The position numbers were made by a program, and so were the translations under genes. The notes under the pieces are model-generated. The model saw only the letters and a list, made by a program, of their open reading frames with translations. It had not been told where the DNA came from and did no database searches. A stretch of 64,000 nt of DNA from Styela clava (taxonomy: Eukaryota > Chordata > Ascidiacea > Stolidobranchia > Styelidae): assembly GCF_964204865.1 (NCBI RefSeq), contig NC_135261.1:7502001-7566000 (forward strand). Direction: 5' to 3'. Position 1 is the stretch's first letter. Every line of letters begins with the position of its first letter. This document shows, in pieces, positions 22,160-64,000 of this stretch.

Positions 22160-24931
22160 TTACAATAAACCATGACACATTCCATCAATGTATTCCAATC
22201 TCATGCACATGTGACCATACCATGTTTGAGGATAAACTCGAATGTATCGGCATATTATTACATTCGGAAACATGTTGGTGACCTTGGTTCTTCTATCATT
22301 ATTTCCAGTAAATATCTAAAATATATAATAAGGATCAAAAGTATCACAATAAGTTCAGTAGATCATATCAAAATATAGTAAATATAAGTGATAGTTGGAT
22401 TACAGTTGAGTATATATTAATCTAAATTAGGGGATTGCAACATTTTCTGTCGTTGGGCCCTATAACCAACTTCAGACATCTAGCTGGGCTACACAAAAAA
22501 TAGTTTTTTCATGTAAATACCGAATAAAAAAATTCTTGTTCAGCCTTACAGCTATAAAGGCAACAGGCAAACGGCCGAAGATTTAACGCAGCGACAAGAA
22601 TCATGTGAGCGCTTTTTTAAACATAAATGTCGGATTAGGATTTTATTCTTGATGAAAAAAATCTTGAGTGTTGACAAAGGCTCTGATATAAGTAAGAAAT
22701 AGCCACTATGAAGTGTAGAACTCCCCGCTTGTCAACAAATTTCTCTGATAAGAGTTTTTCATGCATTTTGCTGTCTCCTTGCCAAGTTAACTGGTATCTA
22801 ATTTAATTAATGAGTATAGTTTTATAATAAGTCACTATTTCTTTTATATATATATGTTTTTTATTTGAATTCCATATGAAAGACCCCAAATTCGCTGCTG
22901 ACTAGCTTGTTAACAATGACTAGAAAATCCCATATTATGATAAAACTGTTGAAAATCATTATTATTTGCAAATCGAGCTTGATTACTAAATACATCCTAA
23001 ATGCAGTTTTATAAAGGCAAAAAGAGTTTCGAGATACTATCTTACCTTGTCTGAACCATTCTCTTGTATTGTTATCATTGCGCTGGTAGAATTTCCATAC
23101 GATATTTTGAAAGACCGAACCCAATTATCGTTGCGTGCTCGTCCCTGTGTCACGATTCCTCCTATTGGTTTTGGCGCCTTGAAATATACCTGATGCCATT
23201 CTCCTATTGCACCTATAAAAATGAATCATTTATTTTAATATTCTACGAAGAGATCATCCCACTTACATTTTTTAATGCACACAGTCTAAATTCTATAATT
23301 TTGCAACAGGCAGAAGAACTTACTAGAAATCAAAGTTAAATCAAATAGTAACCACATTGCACTATAAGTGCAGAAAGATTTACCAGAAATAACTACTATA
23401 CGATTCATTGCATTCTGTGTTATATGATAGATATTTTTGACCGTGATAATGAACTCTTTCAATTTCATAATTGAGTGCGAAATAATTTAAAGTTTGTTTT
23501 GAAGTTTTATTGAGAACTTATGTACTTGTCAAATATGATATAATTTAACAAACATTCAAATAAATTTGTATAAATAAAAAATTTGGATAAAGACATAGTT
23601 TCCGCAAACGCGAAAATAGTATATTTTGAAGCGCAAACTGTCAGTGATTTTCCATGATTATTTATTTTAATTGTAGAAAATCAAAATAACTTACTTCTAC
23701 CAGGAATCCAAACAGCGTACTTTCCGCCAGAACGATCCACATTGTCCAATCTTCCATAATAAGCTTGATAACTGGGACCATCAAATGATGAAGCTGTGAT
23801 TTGTGAGTCAGGAATGATATAACGATTCTTGACACCCATGTAGCAAATCTCAGCTGAAATTAGAAGTGACCACGCTGTGTATGGTAGGCAATTTCATATC
23901 TTGATTGTTTTTAGTTGGGAGCATTGTAGGGAGACAGAACTTCGGAAACAAATGTGGGAACATGCGATTGAAACCATAATTATTTTATAAGTTTTTGATA
24001 ATATTTTTTCGTCGAGGTTAGATATATTAACAGACTATCGTATTTATTATGAGCAACCATAATTAATTCAGTGACATGAAGTAAAGTCTCTCAACCTTAT
24101 AATAAAAGTTGCCATTGTCATATGATTGCCGCTCAAAACGACTCAGTTTGCCTATTTCTCTAAAATGCTTTATTTATGCAATATTTATATTTATTTATTC
24201 ATGCAATATTTATGTCTGATATAAAAACAGTTATTGGCACAGAGTGTGCCGTACACAGATATTACTCTTGTTTAATTTCAATGATTTTGACATTAATCTG
24301 TTTTATTTTCAAGCAAATGATTGAAGCCGGAAAAGGTGGAAATATACAAATGCAATTCAAATCAAGATCTTCGGCATATGTTTGACAGCAGTGAAATGCT
24401 TACAATTTAGCATATTCTTCATGAACTTTTGACTCTTCAGGAATGAATCTGAAATGAATAAATTAGATGATTAACAAATTGTTAAAATATTTTGAAATTT
24501 AGAGTTTTAATAACAGTTCTGTCTTGAACAATACAAGAGTCGTGTTCAGTTTGAGGTGAATTTCTTTGCACGTTAAATCAAAAAATATTATATTGAGAAT
24601 AAATGATTTGTAATAAATTGAAATTTATCAATCTAATGGAAAAATCTTTCCGATATGATTCGTTCAAACAATCACCTTCCAATTTCCTCATTCTTTCTTC
24701 TAGGTGTTCCGCTGTTCCTGGTTCACCCCGTTCTCCTTTTATTCCGGGTAATCCACGTATTCCTTCATTTCCTCTTTTTCCTGGCCTTCCCTGGCACTGA
24801 CTCGAGTCACATCTGGCGAGACTCGCATTGCCGTTTGCCACCACGTGTGAACAAAATTCATACAATGTTGGCATGTGACATAAGACACAAGGAAGCAGCA
24901 ATATAGAACAGCAAACAACAAAAGAATTCAT
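22160..24931 (-). CDS. Secreted collagen/F5-8C (discoidin) protein, array copy 1, 260 aa
   Basis: Exons (minus): 24931-24676, 24448-24404, 23853-23695, 23212-23046, 22315-22160; 783 bases in frame. Signal peptide 1-18; Cys-rich segment (C27, C41, C46) with a glycosylation sequon at N35; eight Gly-X-Y triplets from G48 to 71; helical linker 74-100; F5/8C domain 104-256, bounded by C104 and C256, with GRLDN, EWHQVYF, WVRSFKISYGN, IFTGNND and RYIRVYPQTW. By family the domain binds sugars or lipids through three loops, and the collagen stalk should trimerise. The layout resembles collectins and ficolins; a role as a soluble recognition molecule is inferred. A splice acceptor (atttag) lies just before the ATG, so a 5' UTR exon probably exists upstream. 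Intron 4 holds a decayed hAT-like MITE also present in copies 2 and 3. Confidence 0.9.
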
Positions 24932-25842
24932 ATTGTTATATCTAAATGCAGGAAGGAGAATATGAAAAGCTTTACAAAATATGTACAAATTTCAATAACA
25001 TAAATTGTCTCAAAAAGGTTAATTAATTTCCTGTACACTTCAACAACAAAATAGAATATACCTCCGTTCGATATCTGCATCGTGGGCATAATATTTGCTG
25101 GAAATTTTTCCAAAAACGTAGCAAATTCATAATTTAATCCCATCCCCTAATATATTCAAACAAGTCTCCCATAATATCGTTTTGTACTCTAATAATTTTA
25201 CCTTCTTCCTCAATTTACTAAGAATATTGTGGACTTTCTACACTGAGTGATGTCTTAAACCTCTTCTCAGCATACACGAATTTACAGACTAAATCTATTT
25301 CTGTCTTCTTCAATAAATAAAGTCTTAAATCTGATTTTCTGAGTGGAAATAGTCTGTGACGTACATAAGTTAAGTTTGCTTTTACCAAATTTGCAGATTG
25401 AAAGCGCCTTGTGTTGTTTAAACTTCTCAGCAGGGGTGAAATAACAAAAGATATCAATGGAGTCACTTGAGACAAGTGTTTCAGTTGAAGTTTGGGTCAT
25501 CTTCTCACGACCTTTAATATTTATATGTAAATCTTCCAATCAAATTGCGTGCGAAAGAAAACTAGTAGAAAAATTCCGTCGGTGGTAAATATTTTACCGT
25601 GAATCAACGAGACTATAAATCAATCCGTAAATTTCTGTTGCAAATTCATTCAATAAAAGGCAAATTAAATTATATGCAAATTAAATTCCGTTTAAATCAT
25701 TAACTTTCTATCATATTGATAATGTTATCAATTATTTCTTCTAATCTAAAATCCCTGTTTTCACATTTGAAAACCTAGATTTCCACCCAATCGAAATATA
25801 CTTATCGGTTACTTACTTACGAAAATTGATACAAATAAAGAA
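24932..25842. repeat. Upstream flank of array copy 1
   Basis: It matches 37142-38110 (copy 2) and, in part, 32475-33060 and 21125-21370. It should contain the promoter and a noncoding first exon, which I could not define. Shared marks include atcttctcacgacctttaat and the stretch around ccctgttttcacatttg. Confidence 0.6.
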
Positions 25843-26040
25843 TTAAACAAAAAACTGATGACGTCCCATCGTACCTTTCTCGTATTTGGTTTTGTAATGT
25901 CGCTTCAAATTATATTCTTTCGTGACGGATATTACTTGAAAACACACCAGACACTGTGGTTTAACGTTGTTGTGGGTAAGGAAACACATTGCTTTCCAGT
26001 TCACTTCGGTCACCTTTGTCAATAAACAACCAAGTCCGTC
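25843..26040 (-). pseudogene. hAT transposase N-terminal zinc-finger fragment
   Basis: The minus strand reads, in one open frame, a segment ending at the stop codon 25843-25845 with KPQCLVCFQVISVTKEYNLK followed by RHYKTKYEKG. This matches the N-terminal finger of Charlie-like hAT transposases and their domesticated relatives, where the pattern is CLVC...EYNLKRHY-x3-H. The final His is replaced by Tyr, so the finger is broken. No other part of the transposase lies beside it. It is a relic, not a gene. Confidence 0.75.
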
Positions 26041-27116: not shown

Positions 27117-27660
27117 CAGTGAACGATCCAAAACAACCAAACACTCCAAAGGAACGGAAAGCATAAAATAAAAATAACAGATACCAGGCAGTAAAATACA
27201 AGAAAGACCACATACACAATAAAAAACACTGACCAACCCTGAAATCGAAGACACTTTCAATAGAAACTAAATGACCCCCAGAATCCAGTACAATAAACTA
27301 GCTACTGCAATTTACAAAACAGGCCGAGACATTTAAAAAGACTATAAACAGTTCTATAGGTGCACAACATTTGAACAATACTGATGAAAGCTAATTCCAC
27401 GACAAAACTGGAAACACAACACCAAATGAACTGTAATTGCACTGTACTGATAAAAACAATAACACGGTCCCTACGTCAGCACACTGTCCAGCACTAAACA
27501 TCCAACGGTCACACAACCACAGACAAACATCCCCGAAGACCAGAGGCACCCACACAGACACAAAACACCCACCAATTCAACCGAAACACTCAGACGACTG
27601 GCCCTCGTCAACCCACGGTGCAGACCACGCCGCAAAAAGGGAAGGCTGACAGTGTCACAG
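27117..27660. other. A/C-rich, strand-skewed island
   Basis: The plus strand is strongly biased to A and C (for example acacaaccacagacaaacat), unlike the balanced AT-rich sequence on both sides. A plus-strand open frame at 27437-27649 has a composition-driven Thr/His/Pro-rich product with no recognisable domain. It could be a fragment of a retroelement or of a transcribed repeat; undetermined. Confidence 0.4.
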
Positions 27661-34319: not shown

Positions 34320-37141
34320 TTACAATAAACCATGACACATTTCATCAATGTATTCCACTCTCATGCTCATGTAATTATGCCATGTTTGAGGATAAACTCG
34401 AATGTATCGACATATTATTACATGCGGAAACATGTTGGTGACCTTGGTGTTTCTGTCATTATTTCCAGTGAATACCTGAAATATATAATAAAGATCAAAA
34501 ATATCACAATAACCTCAGTAGGAACTAACAAAATATAGTAAATAGTGAATATAAGTGATAGTTCGATTACAGTTGAGTATATATTAAACTAACACAGGGG
34601 TTTGCAACATTTTTGTCGTTGGGCCATATAACCAACTTCAGACATCTAGCTGGGCTACACAAAATATAGTTTTTTCATGTAAATAACGAATTAAAAAATT
34701 CTTGTTCAGCCTTACAGTTATAAAGACAACAGGCAAACGGCCGAAGATTCACGCAGCGACAAGGGCCATGTGAGCGCTTTTTTAAACATAAACTGTCGGA
34801 TTAGGATTTTATGCTTGATGAAAAAAATCTTGAGTGTTGACAAGGGCCACACTAAATCGCGTTCCTGGTTGTGGCCCGCAGCCCGCCTGTTGCACATCCC
34901 TGATCTAAATATTAAATAGCCACTATGTAGTGTAGAATTCCCCGCCTGTCAACAAATTTCTCTGATAAGAGTTTTTCATGCATTTTGCTGTCTTCTTGCC
35001 AAGTTAACTGGTATCTAATTTAATTAATGAGTATAATTTTATAATAAGTCACTATTTCTTTTCTATAGATGTTTTTTATTTGAATTTTATATGAAAAACA
35101 GCAATTTCTCTGCTGGAAAGCTCGTTAACAATGACTAGAAAATTCCATATTATGATAAAACTGTTAAAATCATTTTCATTTGCAAATCTAGCTTGATTAC
35201 TAAATACATCCTAAATGCTGTTTTATTAAGGCAAAAACAGTTTCAAGATACTATCTTACCTTGTCTGAACCATTCTCTTGTATTGTTATCATTGCGCTGG
35301 TAGAATTCCCGTACGATATTTTGAAAGACCGAACCCATTGATCGTAGTCTGGTCGTCCCTGTGTCACGATTCCTTCTATTTGTTTTGGCGCCTTGAAATC
35401 TACCTGATGCCATTCTCCTATCGCATCTATGAAAATGAATCATTTATTTTAATATTCTACGAAGAGGTCATCCCCACTCACATTTTCCAATGCACCCAGT
35501 CTAAATTCTATAATTTTGCAACAGGCAGAAGAACTAACTAGAAATCAAAGTTAAATCAAATAGCAACCACATTGCACCACATATAAGTATACGTTTGATT
35601 GCATTCTGTGTTATATGATAGATATTTTTTACCGTGATTATGAACTCTTTCGAGTTCATAATTAGTTGTGAATTAATTTAAAGTTTTTTTTGAAGTTTTA
35701 TTGAGAATTTATGTACTTGTCAAATATGATATAATTTAACAAACATTCAAATAAATTTGTATAAGTTAAGAATTTGGATAAAGACATAGTTTCCACAAAC
35801 GCGAGAAAAAAGTATATTTTGCAGCGCTAATTGTCAGTGATTTTCAATGATCATTTATGATAATTGTAGAAAATCAAAATAACTTACTTCTAACAGAAGC
35901 CCATACAGCCCACTTTCCCCCAGAACGATCCACATTGTCCAATCTCCCATAATAAGCTTGATAACTGGAACTAGAAATTGATGAAGCTGTGATTTGTGAG
36001 TCAGGAATGATATGACGATTCTTTACACCCATGTAGCAAATCTCAGCTGAAATTAGAAGTGACCACGCTGTGTATGGTAGATAATTTCATTTCTTGATTG
36101 TTTTTAGTTGGAAGCATTGTAGGGAGGAAGAACTTATGTGCGGAAACAAATGTGGGAACATGCGATTGAAACCATAATTATTGTAAATGTTTTTGATTAT
36201 ATTTTTTCGGCGAGGTTAGATATAATAACAGACTATCGTATTTATTATGAGCAACCATAATTAATTCAGTGACATAAAGTAAAGTCTCTTAACCTTATAA
36301 TAAAAGTTGCCATTGTCATATATGATTGCCGCTCAAAACGACTCAGTTTGCCTATTTCTCTAAAATGCTTCATTTATGCAATATTTATAAATATTTATTT
36401 ATGCAATATTTATGTCTGATATAAAAACAGTTATTGGCACAGAGTGTGCCGTACACAGATATTACTCTTGTTTAATTTCAATGATTTTGACATTAATCTG
36501 TTTTATTTTCAAGCAAATAATTGAAGTTGGAAAAGTTGGAAATATACAAATGTAATTAAAATTAAGAACTTCGGCATATGTTTGACAGCAGTAAAATGCT
36601 TACGATTTAGCATCTTCTTCATGAACTTTTGACCCTTCAGGAATGAATCTTAAATGAATAAAGTAGATGAATAACAAATTGTTAAAATATTTTGAAATTT
36701 AGAGTTTTAATAACAGTTCTGTCTCGTAAAATTCAAAATTCGAGTTCAGATCGAGTTATAATTCTTCGCACACTAAATTAAAAAATAACATATTGAAAAT
36801 AAATGATTCGTAATAAATTGAAATTAATTGAAAATTATTTATCTGATGGAAAAATCTTTCCGATATGATTCATTCAAACAATCACCTTCCAACTTATTTA
36901 TTCTTTCTTCTAAGTGTTCCGCTGTTCCGGGTTCACCCCGTTCTCCTTTTATTCCCGGTAATCCACGTATTCCTCCATTTCCTCTTTTTCCTGGCCTTCC
37001 TTGGCACTGACTCGAGTCACATCTGGCGAGACTCGCATTGCCGTTTGCCACCACGTGTGAACAAAAGTCATACAATGTTGGCATATGACAAAGAACACAG
37101 GGAATCAGCAATACAAAACAACAAACAACAAGTAATTTCAT
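34320..37141 (-). CDS. Secreted collagen/F5-8C protein, array copy 2, 260 aa
   Basis: Exons (minus): 37141-36886, 36648-36604, 36046-35888, 35426-35260, 34475-34320; 783 bases, same lengths and phases as copy 1. The signal peptide, Cys-rich part and eight Gly-X-Y triplets are nearly identical to copy 1 (one triplet GNG instead of GNE). The F5/8C domain keeps the frame residues but differs from copy 1 in the loops at 124-127, 150-154 and 178-183 and at 242-246 after PQTW. An upstream acceptor aatag lies 18 bases before the ATG. Intron 4 contains a MITE (34595-34902). All splice sites and the reading frame are intact, so it is probably functional. Confidence 0.9.
34595..34902. mobile_element. 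hAT-like MITE in intron 4 of array copy 2
   Basis: Ends caggggtttgcaac and gttgcacatccctg are inverted repeats. Diverged copies occupy the same intron of copy 1 (about 22432-22680) and copy 3 (about 40276-40552), so insertion came before the gene duplications. It is a useful dating mark for the array. Confidence 0.75.
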
Positions 37142-40052: not shown

Positions 40053-42414
40053 TTACAATAAACCATGACACATTCCATCAATGTATTCCACTCTCATTAT
40101 CATGTGATTATTCCATGTCTGAGGATAAACTCGAATGTATCGACATATTATTACATGCGGAAACATGTTGGTGACCTTGGTGGTTCTGTCGTTATTTCCA
40201 TTAAATACCTGAAATATAAATAGGGATCAAAAGTACAACAATAAGTTCAGTAAACCATATCAGAGTATAGTAAATACATTGTAATTGTCGTTGGGCCATA
40301 TAACCGACTTCAGACATCTAGCTGTGCTACACAGCAAATTAAAAAATTCTTCCTCAGCCTTACAGTTATAAAGGCAGCAGGCAAAACAGAAGAAGATTTT
40401 ACGTAGCGAAAGAGCCATGCGAGCGCATTTTTATACATAAACTGTCGGATTAGATTTTTATGCTTGATTGAAGAAAATCTAAGTGTTGGCAGCGGCCACA
40501 CTGAAGAGCGGGCCTGGTTGTGGCCGACGGACGCCTGTTGCACACACCTGATCTAAATCATAAATCGCCAATATAAAAAAAATGTAGAATTCCACGCTTG
40601 ATAACGAATTTCTCCGATGTGAAATTTTCATTCGTTTCGCTTTCTCTTTGCCATCTTAACTGGTGTCTACTTCAATAAGAGTATTTATTAAGTATAATAG
40701 TATAAAAGATTAAATTTTAGATGAAAGACCGCAACCTTGATTGAAGCAACCTTGATGACCCGGAAATCCCATATTGTGATAAGAGTGTTGAAAATCATTT
40801 TATAATAGCAAAATGGGTTTAGAAATACTACCTTACCTTGTTTATTAAGTATAATAGTATAAAAGATTAAATTTTAGATGAAAGACCGCAACCTTGATTG
40901 AAGCAACCTTGATGACCCGGAAATCCCATATTGTGATAAGAGTGTTGAAAATCATTTTATAATAGCAAAATGGGTTTAGAAATACCACCTTACCTTGTCT
41001 GAACCATTCTCTCGTATTGTGATCATTTCGCTGGTCGAATTTCCATACGATATTTTGAAAGACCGAACCCAATTATTGGCATCTGGGCTTCCCTGTGTCA
41101 CGACTCCTCCTATTGGTTTGAGCGTCTTGAAATCTACCTGATGCCATTCTCCTATTGTATCTATAAATATCAAATATTTTATTATTCTACGAAGAGGTCA
41201 TCCCCACTCACATTTTTTAATGCAGTCAGTCTAAATTCTAGTATTTTGCAACAGGCAGAAAAACTAACAGAAATCAAAGTTGAATCAAATACTACCACAT
41301 TGTACTATAAGTGCAGAAACGATTTACGAGGAATAACTACTATACGTTTTATTGCATTCTGTGTAATATGATAGTCTTACTCTTGGCAATGATAATGAAC
41401 TCTTCCGAGTTCATAATTGGGTGTGAAATAATTCAGAGCTTGTTTTAAAGCTTTTAAAAAATAACTTCATAATAACTCAAATATGCCATAATTTACCAAA
41501 CATTTACAAAAATTAGTATAAGTTGAGAATTCGGATAAAGACACAGTGTTCACAAACGTGAAAAGAGCATACTTTTCAGCAAAGAATGTCAGTGATTTTT
41601 AATGATTATTCTTATATTAATTATAGAAAATCAAAATAACTTACCTCTTCTAGATAACCATACAGCATACTTTCCCCCAGAACGATCCACATTGTCCAAT
41701 CTCCCATAATAAGCTTGATATTGGTTATTGTAAATTGATGAAGCTGTGATTTGTGAGTCAGGAATGATATGGCGATTCTTTACACCCATGTAGCAAATCT
41801 CAGCTGAAATTTATATCAGAATTATAAGCTGGTATATATGTTTTATAATGTGACATTTCATTTCTTGATTGTTTCATTTGTATTAGCAGGAAACACTGAA
41901 GTATTCCGAGGAACATTACTTAAACCGGGAATATGAAAATACAATTCCACGTAATGATTCTGCATATGTTAACAGTAGCAGAATACTTACGATTTTTGAT
42001 TGCCAAAAGCTGCTTTTGAGTCATCAGGAAAGAATCTTGAAAGAAAAAAAAAGGATGTTGAAATATTTAGGAATATGTACTATGTATAACATGTATTAAT
42101 TGAAAGGTAATTAACCGATTACAATACATGCTCAGACTTATTTGGTTCAACTCATCACCTTCCAACTTCTTTATCCTTTCTTCTAGATGTTCCGCCGTTC
42201 CAGGTTCGCCCTGTTCTCCTTTTATTCCGGGTAGTCCACGTATTCCTTCATTTCCTCTTTTTCCTGGCCTTCCCTGGCACTGACTCGAGTCACATCTGGC
42301 GAGACTCGAATTGCCGTTTGCCACCACGTGTGAACAAAATTCATACAACGCTGGCATGTGACATAGCACACAGGGAAAGAGCAAAATCAAGGTAACAGCA
42401 ACGGAAAATTTCAT
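40053..42414 (-). CDS. Secreted collagen/F5-8C protein, array copy 3, 260 aa
   Basis: Exons (minus): 42414-42159, 42035-41991, 41803-41645, 41160-40994, 40208-40053; 783 bases with the same lengths and phases as copies 1 and 2. Signal peptide MKFSVAVTLILLFPCVLC, Cys-rich part, eight Gly-X-Y triplets (one is GEQ in place of GER), helical linker, F5/8C domain. The linker exon is the most changed part outside the loops (FLMTQKQLLAIKN). An acceptor atttcag lies 23 bases before the ATG and the 23-base leader is shared with copy 4. Intron 4 next to the exon 4 donor contains a fresh 157-bp tandem duplication. The frame is intact. Confidence 0.9.
40684..40997. repeat. 157-bp tandem duplication spanning a splice donor
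   Basis: Unit 1 is 40684-40840 and unit 2 is 40841-40997; I see only one base difference (atactacctt against ataccacctt). Each unit ends with ccttaccttg, so on the minus strand both carry the exon 4 donor aag/gtaagg of array copy 3. The donor used is the one joined to the exon (40993/40994); the other, at 40836/40837, is a decoy inside intron 4. Confidence 0.9.
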
Positions 42415-42830
42415 ATTAGATTTTCGGATAATATTTCCTGAAATATATCAGCAGATTTGAATTAAAAAAAAACATATAAAAAGTTTTCAAAATCTTATAA
42501 ATTTTCATCTTTTTACAATATAGAGCTAAGTAGGGATTTTAAAATCATAATTTGCTTCACATATAAATTTTAATTATTCTATATTTCATTTAGTCGTATA
42601 GGATTTTTCAACACCTCAAAATTTGAAGATACGCTATTTACTACTTATATGTGTTCTCAGGTGGAATATTGCCGTACATTGGCGTAGCTAGGGGGAGTTT
42701 GCGTGTCGGACCCACATCGAAGTTTCCACATCTTCACCATTTACAAGGTTCTGAATATTAGGCTGATACACAAAAATTTTCTATTTTTGCATTGATTGTA
42801 ATTTTACAGATTTAGGTTTGTTTATATAAT
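42415..42830. other. Upstream region of copy 3 with a hAT-like end
   Basis: About 42520-42680 matches the repeat block at 2640/53440/54850 (aatttgcttcacatat). At 42679 the text cattggcgtagctaggggg resembles the end of the hAT element 27942-29045, but no partner end was found. The presumed 5' UTR exon of copy 3 was not located. Confidence 0.4.
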
Positions 42831-45800
42831 ATATGGCGGATAAATGAAGACATAGTTAATCGTTTAAATCATACAATTTCGCTTTTAGTGTTGGTAGGAA
42901 CTCGTCTGCACTAGACGCCATGGAACCTGACTACTCACTACAATCACTTTTTTTTGTACTTAGCTGCAATTTATCGAATTCGTATCAACACAAAGCGAAA
43001 TTATTGTCTGTTACGAAAGACAAATAGGGTTGTTGAAAGAAGCGTAAAATTCTATGAATTAATTTAAGACAGGGCAAAATTGAGCCTCAGTCAAGCTTGC
43101 GTTTTCCAGTATTTCCTTTCACATGTATTTAATGTGTGCTGGCCTTGCTTTTTCCGTGCAGAATTATATAGCGACAAACTTGACCCAATGCTGTAAGAAC
43201 GTAGATGATATATATCGGCGATAAACGTTGCTACAAAATAGATACACAACACAAGATCGGTCACGCGAAAACCATACATCATAATAATAAATACAAAATG
43301 AAATCATGCAGAATTGAAATATTTGTTCATCTGACAAATAAATCATGAATTAGCAAAACGATAGCGATAGCGAAACGAAAGCGATACCTTTTTCAACGAT
43401 AATTACATGTAAAAGCTGATTTTGTATTGTTAGATGACGTATGAACGTAGTTATCAATTTCCAAGAAACTAATTAAGTAATTATTTCTCGGGAAAATAAT
43501 ATGATTGATTGAAGACGAAAAAATGCCAATGAGACATCGTGCATAGACGATTCGACTGTTTTCAATAAATATTTTTTCAATCAGCAAGATCACGAGTGAA
43601 TTAATTATAACTCGAAAATACTCATTCGTGAACAAGTTCATGGAATTGCAAATTCTTAAAAGTAGCTTAAAAGGAAAACAACAAGCAATTGATTCATAGA
43701 AAATATTGCTTAAACGCATTTTGAAGAAATGTTTAAAATGTCCTCATACCAATACCAATTTAATTACCGACAAGTTTTTCAAACAATACTAGGGTGCTTA
43801 AAAACATTGGTCAATTTGTGATAACCATACCGATTCGTATTTGATTCCACAGTGACTGGTATTGAATATATAAAATGTTTGTAATATATGAGACTGTTAA
43901 TATTAATCTGTTGTTTAATGTTTGTAAGAATTCTTCTGCCTCTTCGTTGGCTGAGTCCCTCATTTTTGGAAATTTGGGATAACAGCTTTTCTTTGTGAAT
44001 TGTATGAACTTATTCAGGAACATTTTAGTCTTATTTTGAAAGTGACAATGAAATTTCTGTTAAAATACGGTACACTCCGATCTCAAGAAATTGGGGCAAT
44101 AACTGTTAAAATTGAATTAGAATGTCATCTTTAAGATAAATTTGAGAGTCCGAGGTTTTTCATGGCACTTGATTCTCCACTACAATCAACACGGCAATGC
44201 CAAGTGCGTGCGTTACTTAATACACTTATAAAGATGGGTCAACTGTAGTTGTAACTGAATATTTTTAGAATATACAATGCAAAGTTACGATTAGGTGGGT
44301 GGTATATTGTTGTGTTCAAATTTTATTTATCTTTTATTATTTATTATGAGTAATTTAGCAGGCTATTGAATCAATTATAAAACAAAGTTAATTCATTATC
44401 AAAACACTTTTTAAAATGAAAAACAAAAGACGTATATGATGCTTCTTATTCCTGCATTGTAGAGGTCCTCAGTTGAAGGCCAATTTTTTTGCGCTTGCGC
44501 TTATCCGAAGTCTCACTCACGTAACTGTTTCTTGACTTGACTAATCATGAATGGCTCATTGTCAACTGCTTTCTACTCAACATCCATGCAGCAAAGATAA
44601 ATCTTAGCACGGCCCATACAACGCCAGTAATCGCTCTCAATTGCTCAATCAGTTGACTTGACTTTTATTATTAAGATAAGATACCTATAGTAGCTGACAT
44701 AGAAATAATGACAATAATTTACAATATAAATATATGCATGGCTTATCAATCATGATTTAATGATGAAACCATGGTGACTCTTCCAGCGATATTCACGTTT
44801 GAAATCAGATTACCGTAAGTTGGCTTATAAACTCTGATACTTACATTTTGTCGAGAAAATAATATGAAAAACGACCTAATATATGGCGGATAAATGACGA
44901 CATAGTTAATCGTTTAAATCATACAATTTCGCTTTTAGCATACGTACGAACTCGTCTACACTAGACGCCATGGAACCTGACTACTCACTATAATCACTTT
45001 TTTTTGACTTAGCTACAATTTATCGGATTCGTATCAACACAAAAAGAAGTTATTGTCTGTTTCGAAAGACAAATAGGGTTTTTGAAAGAAGCGTAAAATT
45101 CTATGAATTAATTTGAGACAGGGCAAAAATGAGTCTCAGTCAAGCTTGCGTTTGCCAGTATTTCCTTTCACATGTATTTAATGTGTGCTGGACTTGCTTT
45201 TTCCGTGCAGAATTATATAGCGACAAACTTGACCCAATGCTGTAAGAACGTAGATGATATATATCGGCGATAAACGTTGCTACAAAATAAATACACAACA
45301 CAAGATCGGTCACGCAAAAACCATCCATCATAATAATGAATACAAAATGAAATCATGCAGAATTGAAATATTTGTTCATCTGACAAATAAATCATAAATT
45401 AGCAAAACCTAGCGATATCTTTTTCAAAGATAATAACATGTAAAAGCTGATTTTGTATTGTTAGATGACGTATGAACGTAGTTATCAATTTCCAAGATAC
45501 TAGGTAAGTATTTATTCCTCGGGAAAATAATATGATTGATTGAAGACAAGAAAATGCCAATGAGACATCGTGCATAGACGATTCGACTGTTTTCAATAAA
45601 TATTTTTTCAATCAGCAAGATCACGCGTGAATTAATTATAACTCGAAAATACTCGTTCGTGAACAAGTTCATGGAATTGCAAATTCTTGAAAGTAGCTTA
45701 AAAGTAAAACAACAAGCAATTGATTTATAAAAAATAGTGCTTAAACGCATTCCGAAGAAATGTTTAAAATGTCCTCCAACCAATACCAATTTTATTACCG

Positions 45801-48700
45801 ACAAGTTATTCAAACAATACTAGGGTGCTTAAAAACATTGGTCAATTTCTGATAACCATACCGATTCGTATTTGATCCCACAATGACTGGTATTGAATAT
45901 ATAAAATGTTTAATATATATGAGACTGTTAATATTTATCTGTTTGTTAATTTTTGTAAACATTAATGCAACTTCTGCCTCTTCGTTGGCTGAGTCCCTCA
46001 TTTTTGGAAATTTGTAATAACAACTTTTCTTTGTGAATTGTATGAGCTTATTCTGGAAAATTGTAGTCTCATTTTGGAAGTGACAATAAAATTTGGGCTA
46101 AAATACGGCACACTCTAATCTCAAGAACATGGGGCAATAACTGTTAAAATTGAATTAGAATGTCATGTTTAAAATAAATTTGAGAATCCGAGGTCTTTCA
46201 TGGCACGTGATTCCCCACTACAATCAACAAACCAATGCCAAGTGCGTGCGTTACTTAATAACACTTATAAAGATGGGTTAACTGTAATTATGAATATTTT
46301 TAGAATTCACAATGCAAAGTCACGATTAGGTGGGTAGGTGGTACTGGGCCATAGAATATTGTTGTGTTAAAATTATTTTTTACCTTTTTTTTGGCACGAC
46401 GTTTTAGTTATTTAGCATTAGGCTATTGAATAAATTATAAAACAAAGTTTATTCATTTTCAAAACACTTGTCGTTAAAATGAAGTATTTAATGCTTTTTA
46501 TTCATGCATTATAGAGGTCCTCAGTTGAAGGCAAATTTTTTTGCGCTTGCGCTTATCCGAAGTCTCATTCACGTAACTGTTTCTTGACTTGACTAATCAT
46601 GAATGGCTCATTGTCAACTGCTTTCTACTCAACATCCATGCAGCAAAGATAAATCTTAACACAGCCCATACAACGCCAGTAATCTCTCTCAAATGCTCAA
46701 TCAGGTGACTTGATTTTTTATTATTAAGATAAGATACCTAGCAGCTGACATAGAAATAATGTCAATAATTTACAATATAAATATATGCATGGCTTATCAA
46801 TCATGATTTAATGATGAAACCATGGTGACTCTTCCAGCGATATTCACGTTTGATATCAGATTACCGTAAGTTGGCTTATAAACCCTGATACTTACATTTT
46901 GTCGAGAGAATAATAAAAAAACAACCTAATATATGGCGGATAAATGACGACATAGTTAATCGTTTAAATCATACAATTTCGCTTTTAGTGTACGTACGAA
47001 CTCGTCTACACTAGACGCCATGGAACCTGACTACTCACTACAATCACTTTTTTGACTTAGCTGCAATTTATCGGATTCGTATCAACACAAAAAGAAGTTA
47101 TTGTCTGTTTCGTAAGACAAATAGGGTTGTTGAAAGAATCGTAAATTTCTATGAATTAATTTGAGACAGGGCAAAATTGAGTCTCAGTCAAGCTTGCGTT
47201 TGCCAGTATTTCCTTTCACATGTATTTAATGTGTGCTGGCCTTGCTTTTTCCATGCAGAATTATAAAACGACAAACTTGACCCAATGCTGTAAGAACGTA
47301 GATGATATATATCGGCGATAAACGTTGCTACAAAATAAATACACAACACAAGATCGGTCATGCAAAAACCATCCATCATAATAATGAATACAAAATGAAA
47401 TCATGCAGAATTGAAATATTTGTTCATCTGACAAATAAATCATGAATTAGCAAAAGCTAGCGATACCTTTTTCAAAGATAATAACATGTAAAAGCTGATT
47501 TTGTATTGTTAGATGACGTATGAACAAAGTTATCAATTTCCAAGATACTAGGTAAGTATTTATTCCTCGGGAAAATAATATGATTGATTGAAGACAAGAA
47601 AATGCCAATGAGACATCGTGCATAGACGTTTCGACTGTTTTCAATAAATATTTTTTCAATCAGCAAGGTCACGCGTGAATTAATTATAACTCGAAAATAC
47701 TCGTTCGTGAACAAGTTCATGGAATTGCAAATTCTTAAAAGTAGCTTAAAAGGAAAATAACAAGCAATTGATTTATAGAAAATAGTACTTAAACGCATTC
47801 TGAACGAATGTATGAAATGTTCTCAAACCAATACCAATTTAATTACCAACAAGTTTTTCAAACAATACTAGGGTGCTTAAAAACATTGGCCAACATTTGA
47901 TAATCATACCGATTCGTAATTGATCCCACAATGACTGGTATGGAATATATAAAATGTTTAATATATATGAGTCTGTTAATATTAATCTGTTGTTAATTTT
48001 TGTAAAAATTAATGCAACTTCTGCCTCTTCGTTGGCTGGGTCCCTCATTTTTAGAAATTTGTAATAACAACTTTTCTTTGTGAATTGTATGAGCTTATTC
48101 AGGAAAATTATAGTCTTATTTTGAAAGTGACAATAAAATTTGGGCTAAAATACGGCACACTCTAATCTCAAGAAAATGGAGCAATAACTGTTAAAATTGA
48201 ATTAGAATGTCATGTTTAAAATAAATTTGAGAATCCGAGTTTTAGTAATTTAGCATTAGGCTATTGAATAAATTATAAAACAAAGTTGATTCATTTTCAA
48301 AACACTTATCGTTAAAATGAAGTATCTGATGCTTCTTATTCGTGCATTATAGAGGGCCTCAGTTGATGACAAAATGTTTTTGCGCTTCCGCTTATTGGAA
48401 GTCTGATCCGCGTAGCTGTTTCTTGCAGCAGGGATAAGTCTTAACACAGCCCATACAACGCCAGTAATCGCTCTCAAATACTCAATCAGGTGACTTGATT
48501 TTTATTATTAGGTTAGGAAACCTAGCAGCTGACATAGGAATAATGACAATACTTTATAATATGAATATATGCATGCCTTATCAATCATGATTTAATGATT
48601 AAACCATGGTGACTCTTCCATCGATATTCACGTTTGAAATCAGATTACCGTAAATTGGCTTATGAACCCTGATACTTACATTTTGTCGAAAAACAAAATA
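42831..48700. repeat. Three tandem copies of a 2,050-bp repeat
   Basis: Units start with atatggcggataaatga at 42831, 44881 and 46931, exactly 2,050 bases apart. The third ends near 48700 and lacks about 0.2 kb (junction near 48240). Copies differ by scattered substitutions and small indels. Minus-strand open frames of about 60-130 codons recur in each unit (for example 43393-43719, 45424-45813, 47472-47798), but they have no recognisable domain, their ends shift between units, and the substitutions I compared change amino acids freely, so I call none of them genes. Each unit lies between copy 3 and copy 4 of the collagen/F5-8C array. Confidence 0.85.
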
Positions 48701-49148
48701 TAAAAGAAACAACCATTTCAAGCAATACTTGATATTGTTTTAAAAGAAGCAATGATATACGTAAGATTAGACTATTTCGTTTGATATTTATTTTGAGCAA
48801 GTTTATGTGAATAAAATTTATACCTTCATCTACTAAACTTGTATGTAGTTTAATAAATAAGCAGAACAAAAATGTTAACTCCATTTTTTAGATATTTCTA
48901 GACTACCCTAAATATTGACGAGGTATTTGTTTTTTCATAAAACTCTTATCTGTCAATCATGTGGATAAATTTAGATAATCAACATTGTTCGACAACCACT
49001 CATAGGTATCGACATATTATTAAATGCGAAAACATGTTAGTGACCTTCGTGTTTGTGTCAATATTTCCTGTAAATATCTTAAATTAAGAAATGATTCAAA
49101 ATATTAAAGTTAGATCAATATTTAATTACATACGGGTATATTTTTTTT

Positions 49149-49181
<33 letters not shown>

Positions 49182-49773
49182 CAACTGTGGAATGTGGGAA
49201 CACTCACTTGTCAACGAAGTTTTCATAATAAAAATTTTCTGAGAAGTTTATTGAGAAATCTGCAGAATTCGCTATCAATAACTTCATATATTTTAAATAC
49301 ATGTTAACATGCATCTACTTAAATATCTGAACAGAAAATGGAAATGATATGTATGTTCTTTGGCGTTAGGGGTCGCTGTAGAGTTGTGACTGTTCTAGAG
49401 GTATCTTTTCAATTTCGGACAAAGGCTTTGAAATATCAGAAATATATTATCAATTTATAACAATGGGGCCCAAATATACTAAATTCACGCTTGTGTTCTT
49501 GTTGGATTAAAAGCGGGTAAATTATATTTGATTAATTCAAAAATAAGTTTTGATACTACAGTACCTTGTCTGAACCATTATCACGTGTTGTTATCATTGT
49601 TTAAAAACTTGTCTTACTTGTGTCACGATTCCTCATTTTGGTTTAGATGTCTTGGAATCTATTTCATGTCATTCTCCTACTTTATCTATCAAAATTCTTT
49701 ATTCATTTCAAAGAGTTTTCAATTTTATACTCCGACTAACATTTAAGAAGCTCCTGCACTGTATACTATAGAT

Positions 49774-52560: not shown

Positions 52561-53399
52561 TTACTTATCTGTGTAGCCCAGTATGGATACCTTCCCCGAT
52601 CTAGATTGTCCAATCGTCCATAATAAGCATGATGATTGTTATAGAAAACTGATGAGGCTGTGATTTGTGAGTCAGCAATGATGTGACGATTCTTTACACC
52701 CATGTAGCAAATCTCGGCTGGAATTTATATCAGAATTATGAGGAAATAGTAAATATTGTATATTATGACGTTTCATTTCATGATTGTCTCATTTGTATTA
52801 GCTGGGAACAATGAGCACTGTAGGTGTTTCGAGTTAATTAAACCGGGAATATGAAAATACAATTCAACGTAATAACATATATCAACAGTGGTAGAATACT
52901 TACGATTTGTCATCGCCATGAGTCTTTTATTCATCAAGAAAGAATCTTGAAAGAAAAAAAAACAAGAACGTTGAAATATTCAAAAATATGTACTATGTAT
53001 AACATGTATCAATTGAACCGTAATTAACCAATTACATTACATTTTCGGAATTATTCGTTTCAAATCATCACCTTCCAACTTCTTTATTCTTTCTTCTAGA
53101 TGTTCTGGTGTTCCAGGTTCTCCTCTTACCCCGGGTAATCCACGTTCTCCTTTATTTCCTTTTTTTCCTGGCCTTCTTTGGCACTGACTCGAGTCACATC
53201 TGGCGAGACTCGCGTTGACGTTTGCCACCACGTGTGAAAAAAAATCATACAATGTCGGCATATGACATAAGTCACATAACACACAGGGAAAAAGCAAAAT
53301 CAAGGTGACCACAACGATAAATTTCATATTAGATTTTCGGATAATATTTCCTAAAATATATTAGCAGAATTGGATTAAAATGGTACAAATGGTAAGTTC

Positions 53400-55500
53400 T
53401 TCAAAAAATTATATAAATTTATCATTTTACACTTTGAAGCTAAGAAGAGATTTTGAAAGCATAATTTGCTTTACATATGAAGCATGCGTTTCAGATAAAT
53501 CAGCTCTATTATTTCATTGGTGTTGGCGTAATTAGCTAGCGTAATATTCCCAATTAAATGTAGGGGTGAGTGAAGTTGACTATGTTGCTAACCTACATAT
53601 ATGTTAATTTTATGTTTTCCAATTTTCAGGTTTGGTGATATATTGTTATCTTCAAAACATTCACCCAAAGTATGTTTTGAAGGAATATAATATGATTAAT
53701 AGCGTTTAGAACTAGGTAACTCTTTCTTAGTTATTACGTGTAAACTTTTCTGTAAAATATCTAAATATTTAACAAAAAAATTACGGTAGAATTATTGAAA
53801 CCAATAAATTAGAATAGTGGTATTTGTAGAAAATAAACATCGCTATGTATAAGGGGTAAATATTTTTAGAGGATTAGGCGAGGAAATTTAAAGAAGCCTC
53901 TACCACACGCTCACATCATAAATTATAACTGTAAACATTAGAAATCATCACTAAATCAGGGCGGAATAACCTGTGCGGTGGTGTGTTTCGGTTGCACTAT
54001 ATAGCAAAATTCAAAAATATTCTAGACGTAATTAGTAATTAATTACCTATAATTAGATAATTGCTTGGCGTGCTTCTCTGTGTTAATACATATATAATAT
54101 GACACCTCCATTTCATCTATCAGTGATTCCAAAAGTGGGCAACATATCTCTCTGGAGGTCAAAGGGAGATACATTATGGGGCAAAAAACGACAGGCGATA
54201 GCACATTCAATTTTCGCTTATAGGTTGTACCTATAACCAAATTGTCTCCTAATATTAAGAAAACTTCTTGACAATCAACAAGCTGCCCACCCCATTAGAG
54301 GAGAAGACACCATAAACACATTAGAACACTTGTTTAATTGATTTGTAATGATCTTGTTTTTAATTTACTTTAATTTTTGAATTGCCGGGTGCCATAATAA
54401 CGTATAAAGTGCTGTAAATGCGCAATGGTACATAAATACAAGAGAATAATAAGCGAATTTATGTTTGAGATAAAAACAATTCCTTACCATCTTAGGCACA
54501 AGTATATGAGATATAGAAATCCAATTTTCTAGCGAAAAACGACCCAGAAAAATACTTTGATTTCAGTCGCATCGTACAGCTTATACCAAAACGTACAGGG
54601 TTAGAGTGTGGAAAAAGTTTCTGCATCCCTGCTCTGAATAATGACAATTTCTGCTAATGTACAACTCACGCTTCATTGATTTGCTCGGCGCCAAGGAGAC
54701 TTGAGGCCGAGCTGGCTGAGGTACGAAGAACCTCAGTGAAAAGCACCCTATCTGCAAAACTAACAACCGAAGAACTATTACTCTCAAATTGTATCAGCGG
54801 AATTGAAATAAAAATATACAAATGGTGAGTTTTTCAAAATTTCATATGAATTGATCCTTTTACGACATAGAGCTGAGTAGGGTTTTTAAAGTCATAATTT
54901 GCTTCACATATGAAACATGAGTTCCAGTTTAATCAGCTCTATTTAGTTTAGTAGTAGTATTTTAGAAGATACGTATTTACTATAGTACTTGTAATACTTT
55001 ACTTATACTTGTTTTTGCAGATGTTATTATGTCGTATGAAAATCTACCCTTTTTATACCTTACCGTCTGAAAATTAGACATCTGAATCAAAAGCATGACG
55101 GGTGGGGAACACAGTGAATAACAAAATAATTGCATTCAAAATTTTCAAACACCTATCCTCATTCATTTTACTGTGTCACACTTTCTAATTACTGGTGTTG
55201 TTAAAATTAAAATACACAAATAAATAGAAATTGGGATGCTGGTTTTAACTTAATTAGGAAGTTAATTATTATCAAATAAAAACTTCGTCAGATTTCATAA
55301 AAAAACGTTCCTATTTTCTAATTTGAAAACAACTCCTAACTATATATCTTAAAACATAACATATTTTTATGAGGAGTTTCACATCTCCCCCACATCCAAC
55401 TTTGAATCTAACAATTTCGCTTATGATGCACCGGCGGACTCGGCCGCACTAAGCAGCAGAGTACTTGGTTACGCTCTTCATGTTTTAAATATTTTTTTTC
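53400..55500. repeat. Second copy of the repeat block at 2180-5620
   Basis: 53600-54500 matches 4560-5400 (aacattc, then tatgattaatagcgttta). 54540-54830 matches 2320-2600 and 5410-5620 (ttgctcggcgccaaggagac). 54840-55330 matches 2630-3020 and 3480-3930. Same orientation, with indels. No gene. Confidence 0.75.
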
Positions 55501-59861: not shown

Positions 59862-61304
59862 AGGTGGGTTATCACACAAACATTTTTGTAGCAAATTTGA
59901 TTCTATATAATTTATTACGATTTTTGGCGTTTATCGTTTGCATAAAATGGACCTCGTTTGCGAGACTCGTATTTTTAAAAGTCGACCCTGCCGAAATCGA
60001 ACGCAAATTAGTATGTCCCGTTGATGACGTAGTAGTGAGATCTCGTAGGCGAAACTTTGCATTAGGTCAAAGGCAATTATAGCATTCTGTGTACTCGTTT
60101 TGAACCGTGTGCTAGTTCTATTGGGCGGCGCATTTGGAGGAAGCTTTTGTGATTTAAATCAATACCAATATCTTTAAATAATATTATTGCATTATGAGAA
60201 ATTGCAATGTGGAATGTGAAAATGGAATGTGTAGTTGGTGGTTACAGCAGATTTTACAGGGATGGATCTGTCTTGAAGCAGAAAACTATGGATAAAATTT
60301 TCGCAAGTAACCTCTCCGTGGAACTAAAAGAAGACCTCTAAGTCGAAGGATCGTTTCAGCCTTAAAATTATGTTGGAATCCTTGCAAACTTCTACCCACA
60401 GCCCGAAACGACAATACTTCACGCAGTTATTCAAATCAGTTTTTATTTATTTTTAACATTTTATTACAAGTTTTCATCATATGTAATTCATTCATGCCAA
60501 AAAATGTGTTGTCACGAATCTCCATTAGTTGATCGATAACAACTGGACTGTGTTGTTAATAGCAGAGTGCACTGGAAAACGAAGTATACATTAAATTGAT
60601 GGAACTGACATAAAAATAAGATCAGGATAATATCACCAGACAGTTTAGTAAGGTTCAACATACAACAGTGTCTTGTTGCATAATAATGTGAAATGAATAT
60701 AAAAAAAAACTGAGCCATTATTGGGATTGTACGTTTATCTGGTACCGGTAGTAGACTATCACTCTTTTGGTAAATGTACAAATTGGCGATTTGTATTTGT
60801 TGGTTCATACAAAAGTGTGACTGGGTATCATCATGCTTTGACTAAATATTTTTATCAACCAGTCGATAAACGAAATAAAGTGGTAAATACTTACTCTAGA
60901 ATCAGTTCTTCAAAGCCTCCTGACGTACCGGTACGATCATTACATAAAACGCCTTGGCTTGATCCCCTCACATTCAGAACTTCTTATGCATTAGCATTTA
61001 GGCTTAACAATACATTATTGTTTCAATCTTTATTATGCTAAGCGATGAGAAACTAGATTTAAACGCCAAAAGCAGGTTGAACACCTAACTCGCCAATGAC
61101 GAGGGAGCTAATTTCTGGAATGAGTTCTCACTACTACGTCATCGAAGGCCGTTTCCGATACTGGGTCGATTTTCGTTGAAGCGGTTTTTAAAAATTCCTA
61201 AGTAGAAAACTAAGTCCACTTTATGCAAGCGGTAAACGTTAAAAATCTTAAAATAATATATAGAATCAAATTTTCCACAAAAATGTGTGCGTGATAACCC
61301 ACCT
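59862..61304. mobile_element. TTAA-flanked DNA transposon relic with long inverted repeats
   Basis: TTAA lies directly outside both ends (59858-59861 and 61305-61308). The ends begin aggtgggttatcac and match as inverted repeats for at least 100 bases; shorter matches continue to about 185 bases (gatgacgtagtagtgaga at about 60023 against its inverse at about 61120). TTAA targets point to piggyBac- or Kolobok-type elements. No transposase domain was recognised; frames at 59864-60082 and 60721-61041 lie in or beside the repeats. It is probably a nonautonomous copy. Confidence 0.75.
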
Positions 61305-61389
61305 TTAAGCCACAAAATGTTGCCTATTATTCAAAGTATTGTCGTGTGACGTCAAAAACGTATTGGAAACGTCTTTCATCATTCTTTAA

Positions 61390-61704
61390 AGCGTGGTTCT
61401 CAAACTTTTTAAATCACGACTCCTTTTAAGAATTTGTCAAGTCTTGCGAACATCTCAAAAATAACTCGCTAACAATAATCTACAAAGAACAGATATTAAG
61501 GCGAAAGTATATTTTATTCGAAAAACACGTCGGAAATACTTGGATGAAAAATAAATATCCAAAATAAAGAAATTTAAAGATTCAAAATAAGATCAAATCT
61601 AAGAAATATTTTTTAATTTCAATTAGCCTGGCGCCCCCTCGAAAATTTTGCTACGCCCTCAGCACCCCCAATTTGGATGGCACCCAACCGTGAAAGAACC
61701 ACTG
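61390..61704. mobile_element. hAT-like MITE with GTGGTTCT ends
   Basis: The left end cgtggttctcaaactttt and the right end aaagaaccactg are imperfect inverted repeats of the common CAGTGGTTCTCAAA type. The inner part matches 12550-12780. Another left end of the same kind lies at about 62600 (cagtggttctcaaacttttt). Confidence 0.7.
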
Positions 61705-62600
61705 ATTTAGCAGATGATATTGTATACTTTTAAATAACAGTGAACAAATTGATTCATTTTAATCGCGCTGAAGTCCTATTTTTTCGGTTTTTCAACCTGC
61801 ATCTCTTTCTTCAATTTTGCCCCAAATATGACCCATGATTAACTAGATATTATGCCCCTAATAATCCGAAATTTCTAAACTTTAAATGATAGGGAAAATT
61901 CTCAAAAACATTGCCTGATACAATCTTTCAACGTTTCTTCCAGTTTACCGCCATTCTTGGTTTTCCATTACTTATAATGGTAAAATATTATGTTCAAAAT
62001 TAAAAGCATTATCAGAGTAACAGTGTTTCGTGATTGATCGAAATGATCTAGTTATTGGTCATGAAATGGGATCCTTTTTCCAATTGTTGTTTATTCAAAT
62101 CTTCTTCTTGTTGTTGCTGTTTTTTGTTGTACGGGAACAATTGGCCTTTCTATCGATTTTCGAATTACCTGTTCTGTGAACACGGTTGCACCAAAATGTT
62201 GCTGTTTCGTTAATTCAATGGTGATTATGGGAACACTGGGATTAAGGGGGGACACTACGCATTAATATCTCTTTGTTTGATGACATTTTGACTTGAATAT
62301 AATAAGTGTAATATATATACAATTGAGTATGAAATGAAATGGGGTTCAGTGATATGTGACCTGTCATTATTCAAAATTTAGTGAGTGCAACCGGGTGTAA
62401 ATCTTCTCTTCTTTCACGTCATTTCGTCAAATAAAACTCAAGCAAACGCTTCTAAAATGCCATGAGTAAGGTTTTAGAGCCTATTATTTGACAAAAAAAA
62501 CGTTCTTTTTTAAAATTGACCATTGGATAACAGTTTGAATAGAGGGAATCCTGTTGCCCTGATTCAAATATATTTCTTGGAAACGTCTTTCTTTGGAACA
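61705..62600. other. Gene-free stretch
   Basis: No exon or repeat partner was recognised. Confidence 0.4.
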
Positions 62601-63939
62601 GTGGTTCTCAAACTTTTTAAACCTCGTCTCATTTTAGAATTTGCCTTGCGCCTCACCTGAAATATAACTAGCTAACTAACACCGAGTTATAAATGAATAA
62701 CATTTTGAATGTCTGGGCTCCTAGGCTCCAGCCTACCTGGCCTAATGGTAAAAATCCGATACTGCTATAAGCCCAATGTCAAAACGCAAAACAGTTATAT
62801 TTTCTTACCGTTGCCACAGTGCCGCGTTCCCTAGCGGTCGTTATCTGATGAATTATTTCTATTCCCGTAGTGTGTGTACCACTTCGGGGCTACGCCATAA
62901 TTTTATTCCGATTTTCCTTATTTTATTCACAAGTTCGGGGACTGTCTGTGGTGGCCCAGTGAACATACCCCCCCATAGGCTTCCGTCCCTTTACACAACG
63001 ACAACTTGATGTGAAGTAGGCGAACAAAATTAATTACCTCCATATTGGTACACACTTCTGGAACGCCGCATTGTCAACTGCACGCCTAATGACAAAACAT
63101 ATAACAGGTTTATTGTCGATGTGCGCTACCTCGAACAACAGTTGACTACTGCCTTGATCTAATCTGATCGGCGAAATAAAATATTCTGTAATTATTCCAC
63201 CAGATGGGGAATAGGTTTTTTTACAGGAAGGTATGACCGATAAATGCCGTCAGCGACGTTATCATGAATTTGCGAGTTAAGCAGCCATTTGAGACATTGT
63301 TTAATCAAAAGTGTGTGATATATATTTTGTGATGTAGTAATACAATTAGCATTTGACAATTGTCGCTAACTTAATTTCGTACGCTTTTTTAGCAAAAAGA
63401 CCTGGCCCCAGTCCCAATGTTGTAGAACTTACAGATACATAGCATATTGTATTGCAAAACAACAAAGATATCTAGTAGCTGACATAGAATGACAAATGAG
63501 AAAAAATTCATCGAACACTAAAAACATTGATATGGCAATAATGTAGAATAGGTATATTATATACACGGTAAAAAACTGAATGAATGCCAGAAGTGTATTT
63601 AACGGAGAGCCATGCTCAAATAGATTAACACGAAGATCAACGCGAAGCAGAACAGTCCCACAATTGGGGAAAATGGATTGTTTTAACTTCGCGCTCTATG
63701 AATATTGAGAGTTGGAAAATAAAATCAAAAAATTTAATATTGCGTGGCGTGCATTCAAACTAAATCGTGGATAAAATGGAACAAAGAAAAAAACTGAAGA
63801 ATAGAAATCAACGAAAGACATGCGTTTTAACATCACCGTATAACAGATTGGTATTTGCTGTTAAATCTAACCCGGTGTAAAATTATTAGTATTGTAATTA
63901 TAGGAATCTCGGGATATTGACAAGTTGATTCCATGTCAG
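62601..63939. repeat. Downstream flank of a fifth array unit
   Basis: 62680-63240 matches 31427-31800 and 38855-39330 (aatgaataacattttgaatg, ccctagcggtcgttatctg). 63300-63939 matches 31870-32150 and 34000-34319. It leads straight into the stop codon of copy 5. Confidence 0.7.
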
Positions 63940-64000
63940 TTACAATAAACCATGACACATTCCATCAATGTATTCCAATCTCATGCTCATGTAGCTTTTC
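63940..64000 (-). CDS. Collagen/F5-8C protein, array copy 5, last exon (partial)
   Basis: The window cuts this exon. The minus strand ends with the codons for MSMRLEYIDGMCHGLL and a stop at 63940-63942, as in copies 1-3, which places the C-terminal Cys of an F5/8C domain here. The residues just before (KSY) differ from all other copies at the same loop. The rest of the gene lies to the right of the window, so intactness is unknown. Confidence 0.85.
   Translation of the reverse strand, partial: KSYMSMRLEYIDGMCHGLL

Follow-up and report, generated by a model that had tools for sequence, protein, structure and literature searches.

Collectin-like proteins with a discoidin head, encoded by a tandem array in the ascidian Styela clava

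What would a protein recognize if it were built like a collectin and carried a discoidin (F5/8C) domain in place of the lectin head? The question arises from a stretch of 64,000 nucleotides in the genome of Styela clava, a solitary ascidian of the Stolidobranchia (contig NC_135261.1, positions 7,502,001 to 7,566,000; hereafter the window, to which all coordinates refer), which contains a tandem array of genes for such proteins. The initial annotation of this stretch, made from its letters alone, described the array and proposed that it encodes soluble recognition molecules feeding a complement-like pathway. Our analysis confirmed the observation, which proved larger than first thought, and partly supported the interpretation as a whole. 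To our knowledge, the heads known on complement-activating collagen stalks are of the C1q, C-type lectin and fibrinogen-like kinds. If the proposed role is true, the discoidin head would mean that the collagen chassis was re-headed once more in the closest relatives of vertebrates.

The array and its relatives among tunicates

The minus strand of the window carries three intact five-exon genes (A, 24931-22160; B, 37141-34320; C, 42414-40053), together with a decayed copy (D) and the 3′ end of a fifth copy (E), which bears out the annotated tandem array in one orientation. A six-frame scan of the window for Gly-X-Y runs of at least five triplets returned only four, all on the minus strand (24710-24790 in A, 36920-37000 in B, 42193-42273 in C and 53106-53168 in D), and each opens a unit of like layout. 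Genes A, B and C are open from end to end, have GT-AG introns and share exon lengths of 256, 45, 159, 167 and 156 nucleotides (exons 1 to 5). Each encodes 260 amino acids, in a window whose longest stop-to-stop frame is 137 amino acids and whose G+C content is 32-38% per 4-kb block. When spliced, A, B and C are identical, letter for letter, to the S. clava database proteins P0002, P0001 and P0003, respectively, for which NCBI gives only the name “lactadherin-like”.

All three proteins begin with a predicted signal peptide and three cysteines, continue with nine uninterrupted Gly-X-Y triplets and a predicted helical neck, and end in a single F5/8C domain. This domain was recovered both by profile and by predicted fold (the fold search covered the head only). 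A Pfam scan of A, B and C with E-values up to 1 detected no Lectin_C, no Fibrinogen_C and no EGF-family domain, and the F5/8C stretch was single. The order of a collectin or ficolin with a discoidin head holds as first described. Of the two Pfam signatures that the initial annotation had suggested as a check, F5_F8_type_C was matched, and the collagen region stayed under its cut-off (17.1-20.5 bits versus 27.2). A structure model built on an alignment of 51 sequences placed the neck helix at residues 74-99, and a significant heptad pattern (p<0.05) was present in 27 of 39 necks, including those of A and B and excluding that of C.

The exons divide the protein in the same way in each intact gene. 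Exon 1 encodes the predicted signal peptide, the Cys-rich N-terminus, the collagen stalk and the start of the neck (24676..24931 in A, 36886..37141 in B, 42159..42414 in C), and exon 2 continues the neck (24404..24448 in A, with 15 residues; 36604..36648 in B; 41991..42035 in C). The F5/8C domain is spread over the remaining three. Loops 1 and 2 lie in exon 3 (23695..23853 in A, with loop 1 and most of loop 2; 35888..36046 in B; 41645..41803 in C). Loops 2 and 3 lie in exon 4 (23046..23212 in A, with the end of loop 2 and loop 3; 35260..35426 in B; 40994..41160 in C), and loop 4 precedes the stop codon in exon 5 (22160..22315 in A, 34320..34475 in B, 40053..40208 in C). The head of the window copies also holds a cysteine with no obvious partner (C231 in P0001 numbering); a second Styela group has a possible partner for it (the C in ISCG), and C231 is lost in P0004.

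The same layout occurs well beyond this locus. The best 18 of the 21 matches in a first protein search came from S. clava, and a second and third search recovered the layout in Ciona intestinalis, Clavelina lepadiformis (Aplousobranchia) and metagenome proteins. We inspected 68 of the 105 proteins found, isoforms and fragments included (23 from Styela, 9 from Ciona, 28 from Clavelina, 1 from Phallusia and 7 from metagenomes). In 61 of these 68 entries the stalk runs for four or more triplets without a break; the other seven (P0007, P0008, P0079, P0082, P0095, P0097 and P0099) had no stalk of four triplets. The stalk counts exclude hits with named non-tunicate hosts (amphioxus, acorn worm, echinoderms, cnidarians, molluscs, spiders and vertebrates) as well as P0020, P0028, P0069, P0074, P0077, P0085, P0091 and P0100-P0105, among others. 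For the named non-tunicate hits, the listed domains comprise F5/8C and others and no collagen, and a short collagen region could escape Pfam; the search, moreover, extends no further than relatives with five-residue words in common. The metagenome hit P0105 has collagen listed and no F5/8C.

The Pfam collagen family (PF01391) is in the listed domains of none of the 68 entries, and the relatives bear source names of the lactadherin-, retinoschisin-, inactive carboxypeptidase X2-, adipocyte enhancer-binding protein 1 (AEBP1)- and EDIL3-like kinds. The family was likely overlooked because its collagen scores under the Pfam cut-off and its members are filed under unrelated names. The literature searched, with most subscription papers outside its reach, yielded no description of a tunicate family combining collagen with F5/8C. 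The Styela entries with a listed contig fall on six contigs (21.36, 22.07, 22.50, 23.51, 24.30 and 31.34 Mb), so several chromosomes likely carry members of the family, provided that assemblies were not mixed. Extra domains were listed for some members: PF15711, which we take to be ILEI, in Styela P0024; PF00008, presumably EGF-type, in Clavelina P0081, P0096 and P0098; and PF00084, presumably sushi, in Clavelina P0081 and P0098. In P0024 (Styela LOC120341046), PF15711 lies C-terminal to the discoidin head and the stalk motif reads PGKMGP.

We also built a quick maximum-likelihood tree from 163 columns of the head. Eighteen Styela entries form one side of a branch with a support of 95 in the Shimodaira-Hasegawa-like approximate likelihood-ratio test (SH-aLRT), five Ciona entries form one side of another (SH-aLRT 100), and the Clavelina entries require two changes in the tree. 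Several branches are long, 24 of the 48 inner branches lack resolution and the two outgroup entries do not group with each other, so we used the tree solely for this lineage-wise grouping, which points to an expansion of the family inside each lineage.

Ligand-face loops and the start of the stalk

Variation among the heads is unevenly placed. We defined a mask of 31 residues (124-130, 143-155, 178-183 and 242-246 of protein B), four loops whose counterparts in neuropilin b1 and factor VIII C2 form the ligand face, and compared it with the other non-strand residues in four groups of entries: seven Styela copies (the window's group), eight other Styela copies, five from Ciona and 20 from Clavelina. 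In this order, mean entropy was 1.36 in the loops versus 0.18 elsewhere, 1.35 versus 0.58, 0.80 versus 0.35, and 2.18 versus 1.35. The loop entropy was matched by 0, 0, 24 and 0 of 10,000 random draws, and a sliding mask matched the observed contrast at 0, 0, 1 and 0 of 152 placements. Diversity is concentrated in the four ligand-face loops in all four groups tested. In the window's group, each of the six positions that we take to be the neuropilin pocket (125, 129, 150, 154, 180 and 183) is variable (0.86-2.13 bits), as it is in Clavelina (1.72-3.10 bits).

The same focus is evident between the neighbouring genes. With a mask of 34 residues, the loops held 17 of the 26 amino-acid differences between the heads of A and B, 18 of 30 between A and C, and 16 of 26 between B and C. 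The introns of A and B differ by 0.082; for this pair, the nonsynonymous rate (dN) was 0.354 in the loops and 0.035 in the core, and the synonymous rate (dS) in the loops was 0.163; the loops exceeded the introns (p = 1e-7) and differed from the core in the ratio of nonsynonymous to synonymous changes (p = 0.03). This pattern fits diversifying selection, and the family lends itself to testing the origin of loop diversity among tandem innate-receptor genes.

At its start, the stalk is conserved. The window copies read PGKRGN or PGKKGN, and across the 56 entries with a stalk in register PG is present in all 56, followed by Lys (34), Arg (19), Glu (2) or Ile (1), and after that by Arg in 50, Gly in 56 and Pro in 37. 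Entropy at the X and Y places of the motif was 0, 1.24, 0.70 and 1.72 bits, versus 2.44-3.33 bits at the next seven places, which suggests a constraint on the stalk start that the later stalk does not share. PG(K/R) was present in 53 of the 61 stalk-bearing entries and PG(K/R)RG in 49, shares to be read as upper estimates since our word-based search (five-residue words) may favour entries that share stalk words. A furin-type cleavage site at RPGKR was considered and set aside by reasoning, its P4 residue being Pro.

The initial annotation had likened the stalk motif to PGKxGP, through which collectins and ficolins bind MASP proteases. The MASP-binding consensus is given as hydroxyproline-Gly-Lys-Xaa-Gly-Pro with an aliphatic Xaa (PMC2592599). 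The likeness extends to the PGK kept in the window stalks and ends at the aliphatic Xaa and the final Pro, both of which are missing there. Across the family, PGKxGP occurs in 17 of the 61 stalk-bearing entries (8 Ciona, 6 Styela, 2 metagenome and 1 Clavelina), with Xaa mostly Arg; the best fit is the PGKMGP of P0024. According to PMC5300068 and PMC5717261, the motif Lys is essential and touches the Ca2+-site residues of a CUB domain, and BMP-1/tolloid proteins are further partners of this Lys.

Candidate functions

We consider these proteins to be a diversified, collectin-like, soluble recognition family with a discoidin head, at a probability of roughly 0.6. The proteins, with their predicted signal peptide, are likely secreted. 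The collagen and the putative coiled-coil neck would trimerise the chain, and the N-terminal cysteines would link trimers into larger oligomers acting as multivalent recognition molecules, in the manner of collectins and ficolins. Each copy would use its loops to bind a different surface ligand, whether a glycan, a peptide or a lipid, on microbes or altered cells, and would thereby mark the target for haemocytes. In a less certain step, which we put forward tentatively, PG(K/R) at the stalk start would couple the oligomer to an effector by docking a CUB-domain partner such as an ascidian MASP; a charge-based partner (a glycosaminoglycan) or another CUB protein suits the motif equally well. Of the proposal that the array encodes soluble recognition molecules, the recognition part draws support, by inference, from the loop-focused diversity of the four groups and the lineage-wise grouping; the complement part is weakened by the departure of the window stalks from the MASP consensus.

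Known systems resemble these proteins in part. Lactadherin, factor V/VIII C2 and neuropilin b1 have F5/8C heads, and we know of none with a collagen stalk. Collectins of the mannose-binding lectin (MBL) type share the signal peptide, the Cys-rich N-terminus, the collagen stalk with PGK, the neck (helical by prediction in the window proteins) and the C-terminal position of the head; unlike them, the window proteins have an F5/8C rather than a C-type lectin head, a short stalk and no strict MASP motif. Ficolins likewise combine N-terminal cysteines and a collagen stalk with a PGK motif with a C-terminal globular head, which is fibrinogen-like instead of F5/8C. Collectin-like and collagenous lectins of Styela plicata were reportedly the subject of papers by Nair in 2000 and Green in 2006, to go by their titles; we liken them to the window proteins by description alone, not by sequence. 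PMC5465252 also reports collagenous lectins in S. plicata, a member of the same genus, and describes ascidian haemocytes as a source of MASPs, MBL-like lectins and ficolins.

Several points weigh against a recognition role of this kind. The stalk is short, with 7-10 triplets in 54 of the 61 stalk-bearing entries, and the stalks of MBL and ficolins are about twice as long. No significant heptad pattern was detected in 12 of the 39 necks, including that of C, and four further necks could not be parsed; model confidence was low for the N-terminus and stalk (predicted local distance difference test score, pLDDT, 46-68 at residues 21-70). The window's PGKRGN departs from the strict MASP consensus, having neither an aliphatic Xaa nor the final Pro, and the motif lies beside the N-terminal cysteines, whereas in MBL it lies beyond an interruption of the collagen repeat (PMC2592599). 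Lys is replaced by Arg in 19 of the 61 stalk-bearing entries, all from Clavelina (19 of its 26), Lys/Arg is lost in P0004, P0022 and P0030, and the motif is out of register in five stalked entries (P0015, P0075, P0087, P0094 and P0096). The choice of the loops, moreover, was informed by the sequences themselves and by solved discoidin folds; pocket positions 129 and 154 vary little in the other Styela group (0.54 bits), and 150 and 183 are fixed in Ciona (0 bits). Loop dN/dS was 0.8 for A-C and 0.91 for B-C, with loop dS itself high (0.568 and 0.42), and the excess of the loops over introns was weak or absent in these pairs (p = 0.011 and 0.22), so part of the contrast between loops and core may stem from gene conversion that homogenises the core.

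A more specific form of the recognition role is that of a tunicate complement recognition molecule, in which a collectin chassis bears discoidin loops diversified gene by gene and PG(K/R) docks MASP-type proteases, giving a germline repertoire that feeds the lectin pathway. We regard this fuller account as doubtful. On this account, the loop-diversified heads would be the natural counterpart of the “discobody” (4pt6), which, going by its title, is reportedly an engineered binder on the factor VIII C2 scaffold. The natural variants at the key place of the motif (Lys, Arg, Ile and Glu) allow a direct test of the features of a MASP docking site.

An unlikely reading makes these extracellular-matrix, tunic or adhesive proteins: the stalk and discoidin head would bind matrix, and PG(K/R) followed by Arg would act as a basic patch for heparin or glycosaminoglycan, or else stabilise the triple helix where it begins. 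Adhesive function is common among F5/8C proteins, 49 of the 61 stalk-bearing entries have a basic residue at both X and Y of the motif, and Arg is tolerated for Lys, as a charge-based patch would permit. Nematogalectin of hydrozoans likewise joins a collagen GlyXY stalk to a lectin-type head and is a structural component of the nematocyst tubule, although its head is a galectin (PMC3269628). However, a matrix role does not predict diversity in the ligand-face loops of four groups, nor a lineage-wise expansion, and a stalk of 7-10 triplets also speaks against it.

The diversified loops between close copies would suit equally well a role in self/non-self or gamete recognition, with the loops as allotype determinants in fertilisation or allorecognition instead of pathogen sensors. 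Solitary ascidians show self-sterility and graft rejection, and graft studies on Styela plicata reportedly exist, judging from titles. We nevertheless find this improbable, on indirect grounds: humoral recognition is where collagen-stalked proteins encoded in many copies are typically met with, and the tunicate fertilisation and fusion proteins known to us carry other domains. Finally, it is very improbable that the family consists, as its database name has it, of lactadherin-type phosphatidylserine opsonins tagging dying cells, since lactadherin combines EGF with two F5/8C heads and puts fixed hydrophobic spike residues into membranes, whereas the Pfam scan of A, B and C gave no EGF domain and one F5/8C, and the loop residues, mostly polar, change from copy to copy.

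Further copies, neighbouring genes and repeats

Copy D retains exons 1 to 3. Its exon 1 (53072..53327) is open and encodes seven collagen triplets, having lost the first Gly and Cys27 and kept PGKKGN; exon 2 (52904..52945) contributes 42 nucleotides of neck, and exon 3 (52565..52717) is open. Remnants of exon 4 (49559..49686, with stops and a frame shift) and exon 5 (49003..49071, with a stop directly after) lie about 3 kb further along. The replacement of Cys27 by Phe and the NVNAS change in the N-terminus of D (53327-53072) are shared with P0006, from another Styela contig, so these features are not the product of decay alone. Copy E is represented by its final exon (63940..64000, minus strand), with the last 19 codons and the stop, and the gene runs beyond the window; compared by eye, these 19 residues match the C-terminal end of the database protein P0008.

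Two lectin-type features of other kinds lie near the array. A fibrinogen-type head on the minus strand (9786-8226) comprises three Fibrinogen_C pieces (E-values 7e-6 to 4e-31), and a C-type lectin exon on the plus strand (17417-17740) matches Lectin_C (E-value 2.9e-14). The array is thus located in a lectin-rich stretch, which is compatible with an immune role and does not prove it. The fibrinogen-type head belongs to a set of exon pieces (13393-8226, minus strand) of a likely membrane-anchored fibrinogen-like (FReD) protein, with an N-terminal piece at 13.3 kb, a likely membrane span, recognized by eye, at 11.8 kb, and Fibrinogen_C at 9.8-8.2 kb. The N-terminal pieces of this protein show 85-94% identity with an odd, membrane-anchored N-terminus that the database protein P0007 has in front of the head of gene A. 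We rejected P0007 as a membrane form of A and read it as a putative gene-model or haplotype artefact, because these closest N-terminal exons lie at 13.3-11.7 kb, downstream of A and before the fibrinogen-like exons. A possible coiled-coil piece, again seen by eye, precedes the C-type lectin exon (15726-16097).

Repeats occur between and beside the copies. Between C and D, at about 42.8-48.7 kb, a 2.05-kb unit is present in three tandem copies with blocks 74-97% alike; its open reading frames at 45427-45819 and 47842-48144 gave no Pfam match at an E-value of 0.01. A repeat of 131 nucleotides immediately precedes exon 1 of C (42441-42571) and of D (53355-53485), with two more copies at 2552-2682 and 54788-54918, and may be a promoter-proximal or mobile element.

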